From Phycisphaerae bacterium (GTDB lineage: Bacteria > Planctomycetota > Phycisphaerae > Phycisphaerales > SM1A02), in NCBI GenBank assembly GCA_016795035.1, contig JAEUIT010000097.1, positions 1 to 64,000 on the forward strand: 64,000 nucleotides of DNA, written 5' to 3'. The notes under the pieces were generated by a model that was not told the DNA's origin, did no database searches, and worked only from the letters and a program-made list of their open reading frames with translations. Below, in pieces: positions 6,679 through 60,659 of the stretch. The position numbers and the translations under genes are program-made. The number at the start of each line of letters is the position of its first letter. Within the stretch, counting starts at the first letter, position 1.

Positions 6679-6690
6679 CGAGGGGATAAA

Positions 6691-6713
6691 GGATCAAGGA
6701 TCAAGGATCAAGG
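6691..6713. repeat. GGATCAA tandem repeat
   Basis: Three and a half tandem copies of GGATCAA directly after the gcvP stop codon. Same unit as at 8712-8733 and 59351-59383. Confidence 0.75.
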
Positions 6714-6797: not shown

Positions 6798-6825
6798 TTG
6801 ACACCGCTCGCTCTCGATGTATGTT
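6798..6825 (+). promoter_or_regulatory. Strong sigma-70-like promoter of the rbfA-rtcB operon
   Basis: A perfect -35 TTGACA (6798-6803), 16 bases, then -10 TATGTT (6820-6825). It is the closest match to the vegetative consensus in the window. Transcription would begin near 6832, giving a leader of about 280 nt before the RbfA-like gene. Confidence 0.8.
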
Positions 6826-6839
6826 TCGCCCACTCAATT

Positions 6840-7112
6840 GCGGCTTCGGCCGCTGGGAGTCCACCATGCGTGCGATCACGACTCCATCTCTTCGTGCGTA
6901 AGACGGCTCGGCCTGCTCGCTGACGTTGCGCGGTTTCCGCGCGACCGTCGTGCGGGGCGACACCGGGCCGCCACAACGCACACCCCCCTTCCATACGGCT
7001 GAATCCGCCTCGCGGATGGCCGGCCGCTGTCTCGCGGCCTCGGCGCATCCTCGCAGGCAGTCTTTCACGACGCGGCGATCGCATGCGCGCTCGCCGCCGG
7101 AGTCTCTCGATC
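6840..7112 (+). promoter_or_regulatory. Long structured 5' leader of the rbfA-rtcB operon
   Basis: Contains the very stable hairpin GCGGCTTCGGCCGC (6840-6853, UUCG tetraloop) just ahead of an 11-codon ORF. Further hairpins follow: GCGCGG-TTT-CCGCGC near 6928-6942 and ATCCGC-CTC-GCGGAT near 7004-7018. The layout (tiny ORF plus successive hairpins) resembles attenuation-type leaders, but no known riboswitch was recognised. Confidence 0.45.
6866..6901 (+). CDS. Putative 11-aa leader peptide upstream of rbfA-rtcB
   Basis: ATG to TAA encodes MRAITTPSLRA. A good ribosome-binding site, GGGAG (6855-6859), lies six bases before the ATG, better than those of most genes here. A UUCG-capped hairpin lies just upstream. 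It has no enrichment for any single amino acid, so classical amino-acid attenuation is not indicated. It could sense ribosome function instead, which would suit the downstream genes, but that is inference. Confidence 0.35.
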   Translation: MRAITTPSLRA

Positions 7113-7547
7113 ATGACGCGCTCACGCGTTCGAGGGCCGCGAGCTATCGCTGCGCCCACCGTCGACGACGACGTCGACGACTGTGTTTTCGTCCGTTTCA
7201 ACAAGTCCGACCGTTCTCGCGAAGCGTCCGAGCGATCCACGCTCTCGCGCAAGGACGCCCAACTCTGCAAGCAAGTGCTCGTCGCGGTGCAAACCTCGCT
7301 CGCCGAATGGCGCGCCGATCCGATCCTCGGCAACGTGGAGATCGTCGAGGCCGTTCCATGGCCTCGCCTCTCGCGCATTCGGCTCACGGCGCTGGCGCCG
7401 GCCGACGCCGAGTCGCTGGTGCGCGACGCGCTCGACCGGGCGCGTCCGTTCCTGCGCGCCTCCGTCGCCGCGGCCATCAGCCGCAAGCGCACGCCGGGGC
7501 TCGTGTTTCTCGTGCTGCCGTACGCCGGCGGAGGCGCCGATGCCTGA
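7113..7547 (+). CDS. RbfA-like ribosome-binding factor paired with RtcB
   Basis: 144 aa from ATG 7113, which has GGAG (7099-7102) ten bases upstream; ATG 7083 would add ten residues. The C-terminal 90 residues follow the RbfA KH-like pattern: SRKDAQLCKQVLVAVQTSL, then DPILGNVEIVEAV, SRIRLTALAP, and finally ALDRARPFLRASVAAAIS with RKRTPGLVFLVLP. RbfA binds the 30S subunit near the decoding centre and helps 16S 3'/5' end maturation. The N-terminal 40-50 residues are an unrelated Arg/Asp-rich extension. The stop overlaps the RtcB start in ATGCCTGA, implying translational coupling. It may be the genome's only RbfA or a specialised paralogue; the usual nusA-infB-truB neighbours are absent. Confidence 0.7.
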   Translation: MTRSRVRGPRAIAAPTVDDDVDDCVFVRFNKSDRSREASERSTLSRKDAQLCKQVLVAVQTSLAEWRADPILGNVEIVEAVPWPRLSRIRLTALAPADAESLVRDALDRARPFLRASVAAAISRKRTPGLVFLVLPYAGGGADA

Positions 7548-8688
7548 TGTTCCGCTCGCTCCGATGTGCGCGTGGACGGTCGACGGGATCCCCGCCGACG
7601 CCAAGCGCGCCCTCGAGCGCATCCGACGCTCCGACGACGTCGAGCGCGTGGCCGTCCTTCCGGATGTGCACGTCGCGGGAGAGACCTGCGTCGGGGTCGC
7701 CGCTGCAACGACGAGATTGCTGTATCCGGCGCTCGTCGGCCAGGACATCGGCTGCGGCCTCGCGACCATCGCGTTCGACGCCGAGGCGACGTCGCTCGAC
7801 GGCCATCGCGAGACGCTTCTTCGTGCGCTTCTCGACGCCGTGCCGATCATCCAGCACCGCAGCGGCGAGGCCACGCTCGAGCACGTCGATCCGACGGCAC
7901 TGTCGGATCGCTCCCTCGCCACGCTGTCCCGGCGCGACGGCGCCCGCGAGTTCGGCACGCTCGGGCGCGGCAACCATTTCGTCGAGTTCGAGCGCGACGC
8001 CGAGGATCGCCTCTGGCTGCTCGTGCACTCCGGGTCGCGCGTGATGGGCGAGGCGATCACGCGCCTCCACGTTGCACGCGCCGAACCTCGACGCGGGGGA
8101 CTGGTGGCGCTCGACGCCACCACCGACGCCGGTGCCGCCTACGCAAGCGATGTGGCGTGGGCCCGCGCGTTCGCGCGCGAGAGCCGGCGCCGGATGCTCT
8201 TGCGCGTCTCGTCGCTCGTGCGTGCCTCGCTCGGCGTTGCAGCTGACGACGCGACCCATTTCGACTGCGACCACAACCACGTCGCAAGCGTCACGGTCGA
8301 CGGGCGCGCGCTCCTCGTCCACCGCAAGGGGGCGAGCTCGGCAGCGCTCGGCGAGCCTGCGCTCATTCCCGGCGCGATGGGGCGCGAGTCGATGCACGTG
8401 ACCGGGCGAGGCGTCGACGCGTCGCTTCACTCAAGCTCGCACGGCGCGGGCCGGGTCATGAGCCGCGGCCGAGCCCGTCACGCGATTGCCCCGCGGGCGC
8501 TCGACGCATCGCTCGCGTCGGTGACGGTGGCGCGATCGATCCGAGGTCGGCTGGCCGAGGAGTCGGCGCCGGCCTATCGCGACATCCAGGCCGTCATGCG
8601 GGCGCAGCGCGAGCTTGTCCGCACCGTGCGCGTGGTCCGAGGCTTCGTGGTGCATCGGGCCTGCCCGACTGGCTCGCGGGACGCGTGA
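7540..8688 (+). CDS. rtcB: RtcB-family RNA ligase
   Basis: 382 aa, close to the shorter bacterial RtcB2/RtcB3 type. RtcB joins a 2',3'-cyclic phosphate or 3'-phosphate end to a 5'-OH using GTP and Mn2+. Visible motifs: PDVH (41-44), GQDIGCG with metal ligands D69 and C72, GRGNHFVEFE (142-151), VHSGSR (162-167), CDHNH (243-247), and SSSHGAGR in which H301 corresponds to the guanylylated histidine. All key residues are present, so it should be active. It starts inside the last codons of the RbfA-like gene. Other bacteria pair RtcB2 with release factor PrfH for repair of damaged ribosomes; the RbfA partner here suggests an analogous role. No archease gene is seen nearby. Confidence 0.92.
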   Translation: MPDVPLAPMCAWTVDGIPADAKRALERIRRSDDVERVAVLPDVHVAGETCVGVAAATTRLLYPALVGQDIGCGLATIAFDAEATSLDGHRETLLRALLDAVPIIQHRSGEATLEHVDPTALSDRSLATLSRRDGAREFGTLGRGNHFVEFERDAEDRLWLLVHSGSRVMGEAITRLHVARAEPRRGGLVALDATTDAGAAYASDVAWARAFARESRRRMLLRVSSLVRASLGVAADDATHFDCDHNHVASVTVDGRALLVHRKGASSAALGEPALIPGAMGRESMHVTGRGVDASLHSSSHGAGRVMSRGRARHAIAPRALDASLASVTVARSIRGRLAEESAPAYRDIQAVMRAQRELVRTVRVVRGFVVHRACPTGSRDA

Positions 8689-8711: not shown

Positions 8712-8827
8712 GATCAAGGATCAAGGATCAAGGAGAAGAGTGACCGATCCGTCACATGGCGCACGGTCGTCATAGCGCGAGTGCTTTCCCCCCCTGACTC
8801 CTGACTCCTGACTCCTCACTCCTGACA
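8712..8827. repeat. Intergenic tandem repeats GATCAAG and CTGACTC
   Basis: 8712-8733 holds three GATCAAG units followed by GAG; 8794-8827 holds about five CTGACTC-like units. They fill the gap between the convergent rtcB and sugar-isomerase-like genes. No hairpin with a T-run was found. Confidence 0.75.
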
Positions 8828-11484: not shown

Positions 11485-11500
11485 TCGGTGGAGTACGTTG

Positions 11501-14500
11501 ATGCGATTCCTGCACCTCCGCCGAGGGAGATCGCCGTTGCCTCCGCCGACCATCGCCCAGTTGCTCGAGACGAGCCGTCGCGAACTGCTGGACCTCTCGA
11601 ATCGCAATCGTCTCCTCAACATGCCGCTCGAGTCGCGCACGGCGCGGCTCGTGCAGATCGTCGGCGAGGAGGTCGACACCCTCTATCGCGTGCTCGTCGA
11701 CGATGGCAAGGCGATGGGGTTCGTGGCGACGCTGCCGTCGGCGCCCGGCCGAGCGAAGACCGACGACGGCAGCAACGACGAGTCGGACGACATTGATGAC
11801 GCCGAGCTCGACGCGCCCGTGTTGCCGGAGGCGTCACGAAGCGACAACCAACTAAGCGCGCGCCTCACGCCGGAGGCGCTCGAGAAGCGCTTGCTGTCGC
11901 TCTTCCGCGATGCCCAGTCGATCATGGAGGAGCAAGGCGTCAACATCCTCTATCTCGCGCTCGGCCGGCTCACGTGGTTCGAATCGAACGACTCCTCGGT
12001 CGCACGCCACGCGCCGCTCCTTCTCCTGCCCGTCACGCTCACGCGCACCGCGCGGCGCTTCGCGCTTCGCTGGAGCGAAGAGGACCTGCAACACAATCTC
12101 TCGCTCGCCGCGAAGCTGAAGGCCGACTTCGGCCTCACGCTTCCGGAGCTCGGCAACGACGAGAGCTTCCGGCCCTCGACCTACATCGAGTCCGTGCGCC
12201 AATCGGTGAAGGGCGAGACGCGCTGGACGGTCGAGACGAACGGCGTCGCGCTCGGCTTCTTCTCGTTCGCGAAGTTCCTGATGTATCGCGACCTCGACGC
12301 GCGGACATGGCCAGATCCGCAGCGTTTCCTGCAGTCCTCGGCGCTCGGCAATCTCCTCGGCGACGGCTTTGCGCCCGACGAGGCGCCGTTCGCCGAGGAC
12401 GTCGACCTCGACCAGCTCATTCCCGCGGAGAAGCTCGATCACGTCGTCGACGCCGACGGATCGCAGACGCTCGCGATCGAAGCCATTCGCCGCGGCAAGA
12501 GCATCGTCATCCAAGGCCCGCCGGGCACCGGCAAGAGCCAGACCATCACGAACGTCATCGCGACGGCGGCGCTCGACGGCAAGCGCGTGCTCTTCGTGGC
12601 CGAGAAGCTCGCGGCGCTCGAAGTCGTGAAGCGGCGCCTCGAGGCCGCGGACCTCGGCGCCATGTGCCTCGAGCTTCACAGCAACAAGGCGAACAAGCGC
12701 GCGGTGGTCGCGGAGTTCGACCGGACGTGGCGCCTCGGTCGCCCGCGCGGCGACGATCTGGCCTCCGTCGCGGCCCGTTTGGAACAGCTCCGCGCGAAGC
12801 TGAATGCGCATGCCACGCTGATGCACGCGACGCTCGAGCCGCGCGGCGTCACGCCGTATCGCATCCTCGGCGAGCTTGCGCTCCTCACGGCGCAGGGCGT
12901 GCCGCCATCGACGCTCGCGATTCGCGAGGCGCCGCGCTGGGACGAGTCGACCTACGCCGAGTGCCGGGATCGCATCGCCGATCTGGCGCAGAAGGTGGAA
13001 CTGATGGGCGTGCCGGCACGGCACCCGTGGCGCGGATGCCAGCGCACCTCCACGCTCGCCGTCGACTATCCCGAGATCCGTGCCGCGATCGAGGCGCTCG
13101 AGAGCGCGTGCGCGCGCCTCACGCCCGAGGCGGAACGTGGCGCCGCGGCGCTTCGCCAGTCCGCACCGACCGATCTCGCCTCGATGCGGGCGCTCCAGAC
13201 GATGCTCGCGCACGTCGCCGCCGCGCCGCCCGTCGATCGCGAGGCGCTCGGCAACGTGGTGTGGTCGGCGGGCATCGACGGTCTCCGCACGCTCGTCGAG
13301 CGCGGCTGCGCGTTTGCCGCGATCCGCACGACGCTCGGCGATCGCGTGCGCGCGACCGCGTTCGACGGCGACTCACGGCAGACGCTCGCGGCGGTCGAAG
13401 ACAGCGGCCGATCGCTCTTCCGATTCTTCAGCTTCCCGTTCCGCCGTGCGATGAAGGAGTTCCGCGCGCTCGTCGTTGGCGAGCCCCCGCGCGACTTCGA
13501 CGAGCGGGTCGCGCTTCTCAAGGAGATCGTCGCCGGGCAGCAGCACGCGGCCGCCGTGCGGGCAGGCGATGCCCTGGCGAAGCAGGCGTTCGGCGCCGCA
13601 TGGAGCGGCCTCGACTCGAATTGGGCGCAGCTTGCGGCGATCGTGGCATGGGCGTCCAACGCGTCGGTCGCAAAGGTCTGCGCCGACTTCCGCCAGCGCT
13701 TCGCCGCGCTCGACAAGGCGATCGACTATGCGTCGCTTGTCTCCGCGTTGCAGGCCGCAGTGCAGCCGTTCGCCGACGCGCTCGACGCCCTGTCGAAGGA
13801 ACTGGCGCTGGACCCTGCGGTGGCGTTCGGGGCACCGTCGCTCGATCGCATCCCCATCGCCACGCTTCGCGAGCGGATCGCGGAGTGGCGCGGCAACGTG
13901 GAGGCGCTCTCGCGCTGGACGAGCTGGCACCAAGGCGCGACCGACGCGCGCAGTCGCGGGCTCGGCGATCTCGTGACGGCGCTCGAGACCGGCGCCGTCC
14001 CGACGCAGGACGCGGTCCGCGCCTTCCAATGGTCGTACCACCGCGAGCTTCTCCGCGAGGCGGTGCGCCGGCATCCCGAGCTGAGCCGCTTCGACGGCGT
14101 CGAGCATTCGCGCATCGTCGAGGAGTTCCGTGCGACCGATCGCGAACGGCTGCGCCTCGCGAAGTACCGCGCGCTTCTCGCGCACTACGAGTCGTTGCCG
14201 CCGCGCACGAATCTCGGCATGACCGGCGTATTGCTCGGCGAGATCGAGAAGAAGCGCGGACATCGGCCCATTCGCAAGCTCCTGAAGGACGCGGGCTCGG
14301 TCGCGCAGTCGATCAAGCCCGTCTTCATGATGAGCCCGCTGTCGGTCGCGCAGTTCCTCGAGCCCGGCGCGATCGAGTTCGACCTCCTCGTCATCGACGA
14401 AGCCAGCCAGATCCAGCCCGTCGACGCGTTCGGCGCGTTCGTGCGCGCGAAGCAGTATGTCGTGGTCGGCGACAGCAAGCAGTTGCCGCCGACGAAGTTC

Positions 14501-16285
14501 TTCGAGCGCCTCACCAGCAACGACGAGACGGTGGAGCCCGACGACGAGGCGCCCGCCCTGGCGCAGGCCTCGGAGATGGAGAGCATCCTCGGACTCTGCG
14601 TTGCACGCGGCCTGCGCGAGTGGATGCTCCGCTGGCACTACCGCAGCCGGCACCAGTCGCTCATCGCTGTCTCGAACGCGGAGTTCTACGACAACCGGCT
14701 CTTCATCATTCCGAGCCCGGTGCGACATGCCGACGGCCTCGGCCTCCGCTTCGAGTACGTCCCCGACGGCATCTACGACCGCGGCAACACGGGCACGAAC
14801 CGGGTCGAGGCTCGGGCCGTGTGCCGAGCGATCGTCGAGCATGCCCGCGCACATCCGGAGCGGTCTCTCGGCGTTGCAGCCTTCTCGATTCGCCAGCAGC
14901 AGGCGATCCTCGACGAGCTCGACCTCCTCGAGAAGAAGGGCGAGTTCGACCGCGCCGCGTTCGACGCCGAGCATCCGTTCGAGCCCTTCTTCGTGAAGAA
15001 CCTCGAAAGCGTGCAGGGCGACGAGCGCGACGTGATCTTCATCTCGGTCGGCTACGGCCGCGACGCCAGCGGCTACATGGCGATGAACTTCGGGCCGCTC
15101 TCGGGCGACGGCGGCGAACGCCGGCTCAACGTCCTGATCTCGCGGGCGAAGCGGCAGTGCGTCGTCTTCTCGTCGATTCGCGCCGACGCGATCGACCTTG
15201 CGCGGGTCAGCGGCCGCGGCGTGCCCGCCTTCAAGCGCTTCCTCCAGTTCGCCGAGACGGGCCGCATGGACCTCGCGACGCGCTCCGCGCGCGAAGAGGG
15301 TTCGCCGTTCGAGGAAGCGGTGCGGCAATCGCTGGAGGCGTCGGGCTTCACGGTGGAGCCGCAAGTCGGGCAGTCCGGCTTCTTCATCGATCTCGGCATC
15401 CATGATCGGGAAACGCCCGGGCGCTTCATCCTCGGCATCGAGTGCGACGGCGCGAGCTATCACTCGTCGCGCTCGGCGCGGGACCGCGATCGCCTTCGTC
15501 AGGCGGTCCTCGAGAATCACGGCTGGCGGATCCATCGCATCTGGAGCACCGACTGGTTCCAGCGGCGCGACGAGGAATTGAAGAAGGCGCTCGCCGCGAT
15601 CGAGCGTGCCCGCGTCGAGCTTGCGGAAGGAGACCGCGACGCGATGGAGGCGGCGAAGGCCGCAGCCGCCGCGCGCGAGACCGCACGCGAAACCGCGATC
15701 GCCCGCGACGTCGACGTCAACGACGTCGGCGCCGCCGTGACGAGCGAGCCGTACAAAGAGGCGGATCTCGACGTCGGCCTGCGCACGCCGCTCCAGGAGG
15801 TTCCCGCGAGCCATGTCGCCGAGATCGTGCGCAAGGTCGTCGCGATCGAAGGGCCGATTCACGTCGACGAGGTCGTGGTGCGCATCCGTACGTTCTGGAA
15901 CCTCGCGCGCTCGGGCCGGCTGATCTACGAGTCGGTCGTGCGCGGCATCGACGCCGCGCTCGCGGAGAGGCGCGTCGCCCGCGACGGCGACTTTCTCTCG
16001 ATCCCGGGCGCCGCGGTTCGCGTGCGGAACCGTTCGGCGGTCGGGTCGTCGAGCCTTCGCGACGCCGAGATGTTGCCGCCGGCGGAGATCGCGATGGCCA
16101 TCGTGACGGCGCTCGAGGCGAGCCACGCGGCGACCGAGGCGGACGTGGTCACCGCCGTGGCGCGAGCCCTCGGCTTCAAGTCGACCGGCGAGAGCCTCCG
16201 AACCCGCATCACCGACGCGATCCGGCGTCTCGTCGGAGACGGGCGCGTCCAGAGCGAGAATGGAATGCTCCGACTTTCCGAATGA
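11501..16285 (+). CDS. DUF4011/SF1 helicase with C-terminal Vsr-like nuclease and DUF3320
   Basis: 1594 aa from ATG 11501, with GGAG eight bases upstream. The order is: DUF4011 N-terminal region (about 20-250, with LLDLSNRNRLLNMP); SF1 helicase with Walker A GPPGTGKSQT near 340; Walker B VIDEAS near 965; GDSKQLPP near 990; HYRSRHQSL; ESVQGDERDVIFIS; and NVLISRAKRQ. A PD-(D/E)XK/Vsr-type nuclease follows (FFIDLGIHD, GIECDGASYHSS near 1311, HRIWSTDWF). A DUF3320 tail ends the protein. This all-in-one architecture is found in predicted stand-alone antiphage or DNA-restriction proteins. No other defence gene is adjacent. Motifs look intact. The 68-aa protein upstream may be a partner. Confidence 0.88.
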   Translation: MRFLHLRRGRSPLPPPTIAQLLETSRRELLDLSNRNRLLNMPLESRTARLVQIVGEEVDTLYRVLVDDGKAMGFVATLPSAPGRAKTDDGSNDESDDIDDAELDAPVLPEASRSDNQLSARLTPEALEKRLLSLFRDAQSIMEEQGVNILYLALGRLTWFESNDSSVARHAPLLLLPVTLTRTARRFALRWSEEDLQHNLSLAAKLKADFGLTLPELGNDESFRPSTYIESVRQSVKGETRWTVETNGVALGFFSFAKFLMYRDLDARTWPDPQRFLQSSALGNLLGDGFAPDEAPFAEDVDLDQLIPAEKLDHVVDADGSQTLAIEAIRRGKSIVIQGPPGTGKSQTITNVIATAALDGKRVLFVAEKLAALEVVKRRLEAADLGAMCLELHSNKANKRAVVAEFDRTWRLGRPRGDDLASVAARLEQLRAKLNAHATLMHATLEPRGVTPYRILGELALLTAQGVPPSTLAIREAPRWDESTYAECRDRIADLAQKVELMGVPARHPWRGCQRTSTLAVDYPEIRAAIEALESACARLTPEAERGAAALRQSAPTDLASMRALQTMLAHVAAAPPVDREALGNVVWSAGIDGLRTLVERGCAFAAIRTTLGDRVRATAFDGDSRQTLAAVEDSGRSLFRFFSFPFRRAMKEFRALVVGEPPRDFDERVALLKEIVAGQQHAAAVRAGDALAKQAFGAAWSGLDSNWAQLAAIVAWASNASVAKVCADFRQRFAALDKAIDYASLVSALQAAVQPFADALDALSKELALDPAVAFGAPSLDRIPIATLRERIAEWRGNVEALSRWTSWHQGATDARSRGLGDLVTALETGAVPTQDAVRAFQWSYHRELLREAVRRHPELSRFDGVEHSRIVEEFRATDRERLRLAKYRALLAHYESLPPRTNLGMTGVLLGEIEKKRGHRPIRKLLKDAGSVAQSIKPVFMMSPLSVAQFLEPGAIEFDLLVIDEASQIQPVDAFGAFVRAKQYVVVGDSKQLPPTKFFERLTSNDETVEPDDEAPALAQASEMESILGLCVARGLREWMLRWHYRSRHQSLIAVSNAEFYDNRLFIIPSPVRHADGLGLRFEYVPDGIYDRGNTGTNRVEARAVCRAIVEHARAHPERSLGVAAFSIRQQQAILDELDLLEKKGEFDRAAFDAEHPFEPFFVKNLESVQGDERDVIFISVGYGRDASGYMAMNFGPLSGDGGERRLNVLISRAKRQCVVFSSIRADAIDLARVSGRGVPAFKRFLQFAETGRMDLATRSAREEGSPFEEAVRQSLEASGFTVEPQVGQSGFFIDLGIHDRETPGRFILGIECDGASYHSSRSARDRDRLRQAVLENHGWRIHRIWSTDWFQRRDEELKKALAAIERARVELAEGDRDAMEAAKAAAAARETARETAIARDVDVNDVGAAVTSEPYKEADLDVGLRTPLQEVPASHVAEIVRKVVAIEGPIHVDEVVVRIRTFWNLARSGRLIYESVVRGIDAALAERRVARDGDFLSIPGAAVRVRNRSAVGSSSLRDAEMLPPAEIAMAIVTALEASHAATEADVVTAVARALGFKSTGESLRTRITDAIRRLVGDGRVQSENGMLRLSE

Positions 16286-59350: not shown

Positions 59351-59470
59351 AAGGATCAAGGATCGAGGATGAAGGATCAAGGGGCACGACGCCAAATCCC
59401 CTGAGACGCGCGTCCGAGCCTCAAAACCGCCTCCAAACCCTTGATCCTTGCTCCTCCATCCTTGCTCCTT
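59351..59470. repeat. Inverted pair of GGATCAA-type repeats
   Basis: 59351-59383 holds GGATCAA/GGATCGA units; 59438-59470 the opposite strand CTTGATC, CTTGCTC, CATCCTT units. They can pair across about 55 bases. Located between divergent genes 59338 (minus) and 59508 (plus), unlike the others, which follow gene ends. Confidence 0.7.
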
Positions 59471-60257: not shown

Positions 60258-60285
60258 CGCGCGGACTCAGCGTTGCAGCGAACGC

Positions 60286-60645
60286 TCTCCTCCCCCGAAC
60301 GCGAAGCGTTTGGGGCGTGGTGTCATCGCGCCAGCGATGACGGTAGGGGCGGGCTTCCATCACACCCCCACCACCATCGCTTTGCGATGGTCCCCCTCCC
60401 CCGAATCGAAGATTCGGGGGAGGATGCAAAACACTCTCCTCCCCCAACCGCCTCGGTTTTGGGGGTGGTGGCATCGCGCCAGCTATGACGGTGGGGGCGG
60501 GCTTCCATCACACCCCCACCACCATCGCGTCGCGATGGTCCCCCTCCCCCGAATCTTCGATTCGGGGGAGGATGCAAAACACTCTCCTCCCCCGAACGCG
60601 AAGCGTTTGGGGGAGGTGGCATCGCGCTAGCGATGACGGTGGGGG
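60286..60645. repeat. Array of stacked hairpins, 2.4 units of about 148 bp
   Basis: Units 60286-60433 and 60434-60582 are full; 60583-60645 is partial. Each unit has up to four stem-loops: (1) CCCCGAACGCGAAGCGTTTGGGG-like; (2) TCATCGC-GCCA-GCGATGA; (3) ACCATCGC-TTT-GCGATGGT or ACCATCGCGTCGCGATGGT; (4) CCTCCCCCGAATC-GAA or TTC-GATTCGGGGGAGG. Between them are GGGGCGGGCTTCCATCACA and GAGGATGCAAAACACTCT. The loop GCGAAGC corresponds to the exceptionally stable DNA mini-hairpin. It lies between the convergent MtfA and DEAD-box genes; one more copy is at 148-262. Confidence 0.9.
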
Positions 60646-60659
60646 CCGCCTCCCGCTTC

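Follow-up and report, generated by a model that had tools for sequence, protein, structure and literature searches.

The window analysed here, a 64,000-nt stretch of a Phycisphaerae bacterium genome, carries a paralogue of the 30S maturation factor RbfA (RbfA2) whose gene overlaps that of an RtcB-family RNA ligase, and this pairing is conserved in three phyla. We consider it probable (roughly 0.6) that the pair acts as a 30S-directed, self-contained and mobile two-gene unit for the repair of 16S rRNA. This candidate ribosome-repair kit is apparently undescribed: the pair was nowhere described in the literature searched, of which our coverage is incomplete so that an earlier description is possible, and RtcB and RbfA were named together there only in unrelated co-mentions.

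Gene pair in the window

The locus comprises the following features.

6798..6825, + strand: sigma-70-type promoter TTGACA-16-TATGTT, a consensus match only, 40 nt before the leader ORF
6866..6901, + strand: probable leader ORF of 11 codons (MRAITTPSLRA, stop), with a Shine-Dalgarno-like GGGAG at 6855-6859
7113..7547, + strand: rbfA2, ATG start, 144 aa, RbfA paralogue
7540..7547, + strand: start/stop overlap of rbfA2 and rtcB, ATGCCTGA, 8 nt, translational coupling
7540..8688, + strand: rtcB of the RbfA2-linked clade, ATG start, 382 aa

An earlier note on this DNA had described overlapping genes that share a consensus promoter and have nothing else in their operon, and this description stands with one refinement. 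The overlap is 8 nt long, and a GGAGG at 7530-7534 precedes the rtcB start. Scanning the locus for promoters returned the single listed match, against a mean of 0.0 in shuffled sequence. The neighbours of the pair, gcvP upstream and a convergent TIM-barrel gene downstream, fit a two-gene operon; the refinement is the probable leader ORF between promoter and rbfA2.

Short tandem GATCAAG repeats flank the two-gene unit (6684-6713 and 8712-8734) and also occur at 59351-59382; they could be an insertion mark or simply a repeat that is common between genes in this genome. Another tandem repeat, with a 148-bp unit in 2.5 copies (87% match), lies at 60281-60646. At 11498-16285 (+ strand), 2.8 kb downstream of the pair, the window encodes a 1595-residue helicase-like protein with a strong match (1800 bits) to the PADLOC phage-defence candidate PDC-S37. 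PADLOC matched neither RbfA2 nor RtcB of the window pair.

RbfA2 is a paralogue of RbfA

The product of 7113-7547 belongs with RbfA, an assignment that is borderline for the window protein alone and firm with its relatives. On its own it matched Pfam RBFA (PF02033) at E 0.011 and 16.5 bits, under the cut-off of 34.7, while 30 of the 35 members of the RbfA2 alignment matched at E ≤ 0.01 (best E 2e-11) and three relatives exceeded the cut-off. Searched against PDB sequences, the family profile gave seven matches (E 6e-8 to 5e-5), all of them RbfA. In the AlphaFold2 model the type-II KH-like core (approximately residues 46-136) has pLDDT >90 and the order helix-strand-strand-helix-helix-strand, and the N-terminal extension is of low confidence. 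With this model, Foldseek ranked RbfA structures on top (prob 1.00, E 1.5e-4 to 6e-4), the first matches being RbfA of Thermus, Staphylococcus, E. coli and mitochondria. Profile and fold searches thus bear out the RbfA-like label of the earlier note, which had named failure to place the protein in the RbfA fold as an outcome that would refute its proposal.

RbfA2 shares the type-II KH-like fold and core motifs with canonical RbfA (PF02033, NF001802), and its identity to solved RbfAs is about 15-26%. The RbfA core pattern ending R..P.L.F is retained across the family, and many relatives have the AxG interhelical kink, which reads ARP in the window copy. Unlike canonical RbfA, most RtcB-linked members carry a DDGxDPR-like motif in an N-terminal extension, and the window gene is coupled to RtcB and lies away from infB. 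The source genome has its canonical rbfA directly after infB on another contig (C68), as the search for a second rbfA proposed earlier revealed, and the window gene is therefore a paralogue, additional to the housekeeping copy. Six other carrier genomes likewise each had one canonical rbfA and one RbfA2 gene.

The paired RtcB is a distinct ligase clade

The RtcB identification was confirmed by a match to PF01139 at E 5e-64 (217 bits against a cut-off of 27). Alignment to solved RtcBs matches D69, C72, N145, H146, H163, H245 and H301 of the window protein to their metal and guanylylation sites, and these positions are invariant or nearly so among the paired RtcBs; judged from this alignment, the active site is complete. 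K373 of the paired clade is replaced by R in the window copy. Archaeal and human RtcB structures match the predicted model, which has a pLDDT of 94.

In the RtcB tree the paired proteins grouped in a single clade with 99/98 support, and canonical, PrfH-linked and NF007153-type RtcBs all fell outside it; the PrfH-linked type was represented by two rows. The clade mixes phyla, which points to horizontal transfer. The window copy is among the most divergent members of the pair: its RtcB has the longest end branch in the clade (1.18), and the N-terminal motif of its RbfA2 is degenerate (DDDVDD).

Two other rtcB genes are present in the source genome. The canonical one, on contig C22, stands between a Ro60-like vWA gene and rtcA. 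Its product shares the ligase fold and active site of RtcBs from rtcBA RNA repair operons with the window protein, but is 497 aa long against 382 aa. The third (contig C6, 982-1974) encodes a short RtcB-like protein of 331 aa that is very divergent, with an end branch of 5.9 in the RtcB tree. Among curated models, NF007153 (PRK09588) is nearest to the window RtcB and of similar length; the score of 164 bits is under its 407-bit cut-off, however, and the sampled relatives of that type lacked RbfA2.

Conservation and distribution of the pair

We found the pair at 31 distinct loci, the window included (L010 and L039, which have the same RtcB, were counted once), in Planctomycetota, Myxococcota/Deltaproteobacteria-type MAGs and Parabeggiatoa. 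At 30/31 loci the overlap of the two genes is exactly 4 or 8 nt, and at the remaining one it is 17 nt. The rtcB gene runs off the contig at L058, L141, L211 and L213, looks frameshifted at L219, and has a start placed by alignment only at L217. Flanking genes vary by locus. The earlier note had called for a neighbourhood survey of RtcB loci for RbfA and had named a sole rbfA without conserved RtcB linkage as the contrary outcome; the survey found the linkage conserved in relatives.

Eight of the further pairs came from a planctomycete survey. An RtcB-alignment scan of 84,980 species genomes then showed a sharp gap between RbfA2-linked and unlinked loci: where upstream DNA was present, RtcB loci of at least 42% identity had RbfA2 directly upstream (L036-L041, L058), and none of the 72 RtcB loci at 37% identity or less had RbfA2 nearby. 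Later genome searches added more pairs, most of them in genomes assigned to the same phylum as a Myxococcota-type MAG. Among 40 genomes picked for having RbfA2-family genes, 18 contained the high-scoring RtcB clade, with RbfA2 adjacent in each (in two, rtcB is split between contigs), and the remainder had other RtcB types only or no RtcB. The distribution is patchy, and the pair was absent from nine genomes of the window's own family.

RbfA2 genes without a ligase

More than half of the Planctomycetota RbfA2-family genes and about half of the Myxococcota-type set had no rtcB in the examined flanks, so coupling to RtcB is limited to a subset of the family. Most of these stand-alone genes lack the DDGxDPR-like motif, although four (L155, L208, L209 and L234) retain it with no RtcB within 1.5 kb. 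Their existence implies that RbfA2 can serve some purpose with no ligase gene beside it. The rtcB-less genes (L155, L157-L175, L208-L210, L212, L214-L216, L221, L223, L225, L226, L232 and L234) occur in Planctomycetota, Myxococcota-type genomes and one genome of Parabeggiatoa's class, alongside canonical rbfA where checked. No alternative RNA-repair partner was seen in their 1.5-kb flanks.

A short leader ORF precedes the pair

In 16 of the first 17 pairs, rbfA2 was preceded by a short ORF of 8-30 codons that has its own strong Shine-Dalgarno sequence, where shuffles predicted 1.1 and natural controls gave 5/57 and 3/72. A later set gave 12/14; the two sets together, with the window left out, make 27/30 operons, against about 1 in 15 in shuffles. 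Such leaders also preceded 7/12 stand-alone RbfA2 genes. The Shine-Dalgarno sequence of the window leader is weaker than in most other loci; a strict scan picks another, probably chance, ORF there, and we settled on 6866-6901 because it directly follows the promoter and resembles MR-starting leaders. The loci considered here were the window, L007-L014, L036-L041, L058, L141, L154, L191 and L207-L231.

The leader profile was built from 29 sequences, with the window and L191 added by hand and with no leader at L217 and L229. Leader starts have a common AUGCNNCYCNUUG, with C at position 4 and U at position 12 each in 22/29. Promoter matches lay upstream of the leader in 4/29 (0.6 expected) and never between leader and rbfA2. 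Some leaders, most clearly those of L037, L038, L040 and L141, have the potential for alternate pairing with a segment further downstream, which is also able to cover the rbfA2 start region. Over all loci this three-segment pairing beat shuffles (Fisher p about 1e-4), but it was clear in few loci and had no support in the window, and we treat it as hypothetical rather than universal. Rfam families gave no match in 14 of the loci. We also considered a wider regulon with a common leader motif: 15 matches were found in 33 genomes, six of them rbfA2 leaders, and the reversed control pattern gave a similar total spread over the genomes, hence no sign of other genes under the leader. The recurrence of the leader ORF suggests a translation-sensing control, possibly an attenuator.

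Comparison with PrfH-RtcB2

The earlier note had likened the pair to RtcB2-PrfH, and the comparison is apt in that both are two-gene operons of sporadic spread with a dedicated RtcB and a ribosome-directed partner, the latter predicted here (PMC9223846, PMC6514570). It does not extend to membership of that module. The partner is an RbfA paralogue rather than a release factor and is encoded first, and no release factor gene is present at the window locus. The window RtcB scored 137 bits against TIGR03073, far under the cut-off of 272, and its clade was separate from the PrfH-linked branch, of which the tree held only two rows. PrfH was also considered as a co-partner and rejected: none scored above the cut-off in the source genome, and only 3/288 planctomycete genomes had one that did. 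Most likely, then, the pair works like PrfH-RtcB2 and is no member of it.

A proposed 30S repair unit and its alternatives

RbfA at the 30S neck disturbs h28 and delays folding of the h44/45 linker, and it has been described as a gatekeeper close to the 3' end of 16S rRNA (PMC9032327); human RBFA contacts h28, h44 and h45 (PMC9943654). Once the subunits have split, RtcB2-PrfH reseals 30S-bound 16S rRNA cut by colicin E3 (PMC9223846), and religation of MazF-cut 16S rRNA by E. coli RtcB is cited in PMC9223846 and PMC13247085. Given where RbfA binds and that RtcBs repair 16S cuts, an RbfA paralogue would be well placed to act as an adaptor for cuts there.

The target we propose is a 30S subunit with cut 16S rRNA, the cut lying close to the decoding centre or to the 3' end. 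RbfA2 would bind free or damaged 30S at RbfA's site on the neck and platform (h28, the h44-h45 linker and the 16S 3' end), keep the bound subunits out of translation, and present the broken ends (2',3'-cyclic phosphate and 5'-OH, the kind that ribonuclease toxins leave) to the co-translated RtcB, which would reseal them. The leader ORF may act as a readout of translation and raise output of the unit when translation fails. We infer 30S binding, RbfA2-RtcB contact, catalysis and substrate, and with them the delivery of the ligase to damaged or immature 30S subunits that the earlier note had suggested.

In an unlikely but credible alternative, the main task of RbfA2 is to block initiation by damaged 30S, and RtcB mends these lesions with no contact between the two proteins, the overlap merely balancing their amounts. 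RbfA does hold immature 30S back from translation (PMC9032327), and RbfA2 genes standing alone would suit such a role; the 4- or 8-nt overlap and the one ligase clade suggest a tighter bond between the proteins, and neither proves contact. The divergence of RbfA2 from RbfA, with 15-26% identity and an extra N-terminal segment, leaves some room for a KH-like surface retargeted to guide RtcB to tRNA anticodon-loop cuts or to mRNA. We think this improbable, as the R..P.L.F-ending core pattern is kept throughout the family.

Giant sulfur bacteria carry 16S introns, and the pair might instead serve assembly rather than damage repair, either ligating pre-16S rRNA of immature 30S that contains introns or intervening sequences, or putting right precursors that were mis-cut. 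The role of RbfA in 30S maturation (PMC9032327) is in keeping with this idea, as is the pair being taken as one expression unit. The patchy spread of the pair, with nine genomes of the window's own family lacking it, is ill suited to a general maturation step, however, and we rate this reading as improbable, marginally more so than retargeting to other RNAs. That the genes are chance neighbours with no functional meaning has next to no probability, being already refuted by conservation: the overlap recurs at 31 loci from three phyla, amid variable flanking genes.

Returning to 30S-directed repair, a more specific and more tentative suggestion is that the pair represents a so far undescribed class of ribosome repair unit: a paralogue of an assembly factor, in place of a release factor, would deliver a dedicated ligase to broken 30S, with production set by a translation-sensing leader. 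A translated leader would fold the rbfA2 start away, and failing translation would expose it. We regard this full scheme as possible, though we would not bet on it.

Implications

What is apparently new is a candidate two-gene RtcB repair unit whose predicted ribosome-directed partner is of a different kind, an RbfA paralogue. The analysis names a concrete gene pair and, beside it, a family of stand-alone RbfA paralogues, and the leader ORF is a candidate built-in sensor of ribosome damage. If the proposed function is true, the pair would be a second, independent coupling of rRNA repair to the ribosome, made through the 30S assembly machinery, and would connect checks on the quality of newly made subunits to the repair of old ones.
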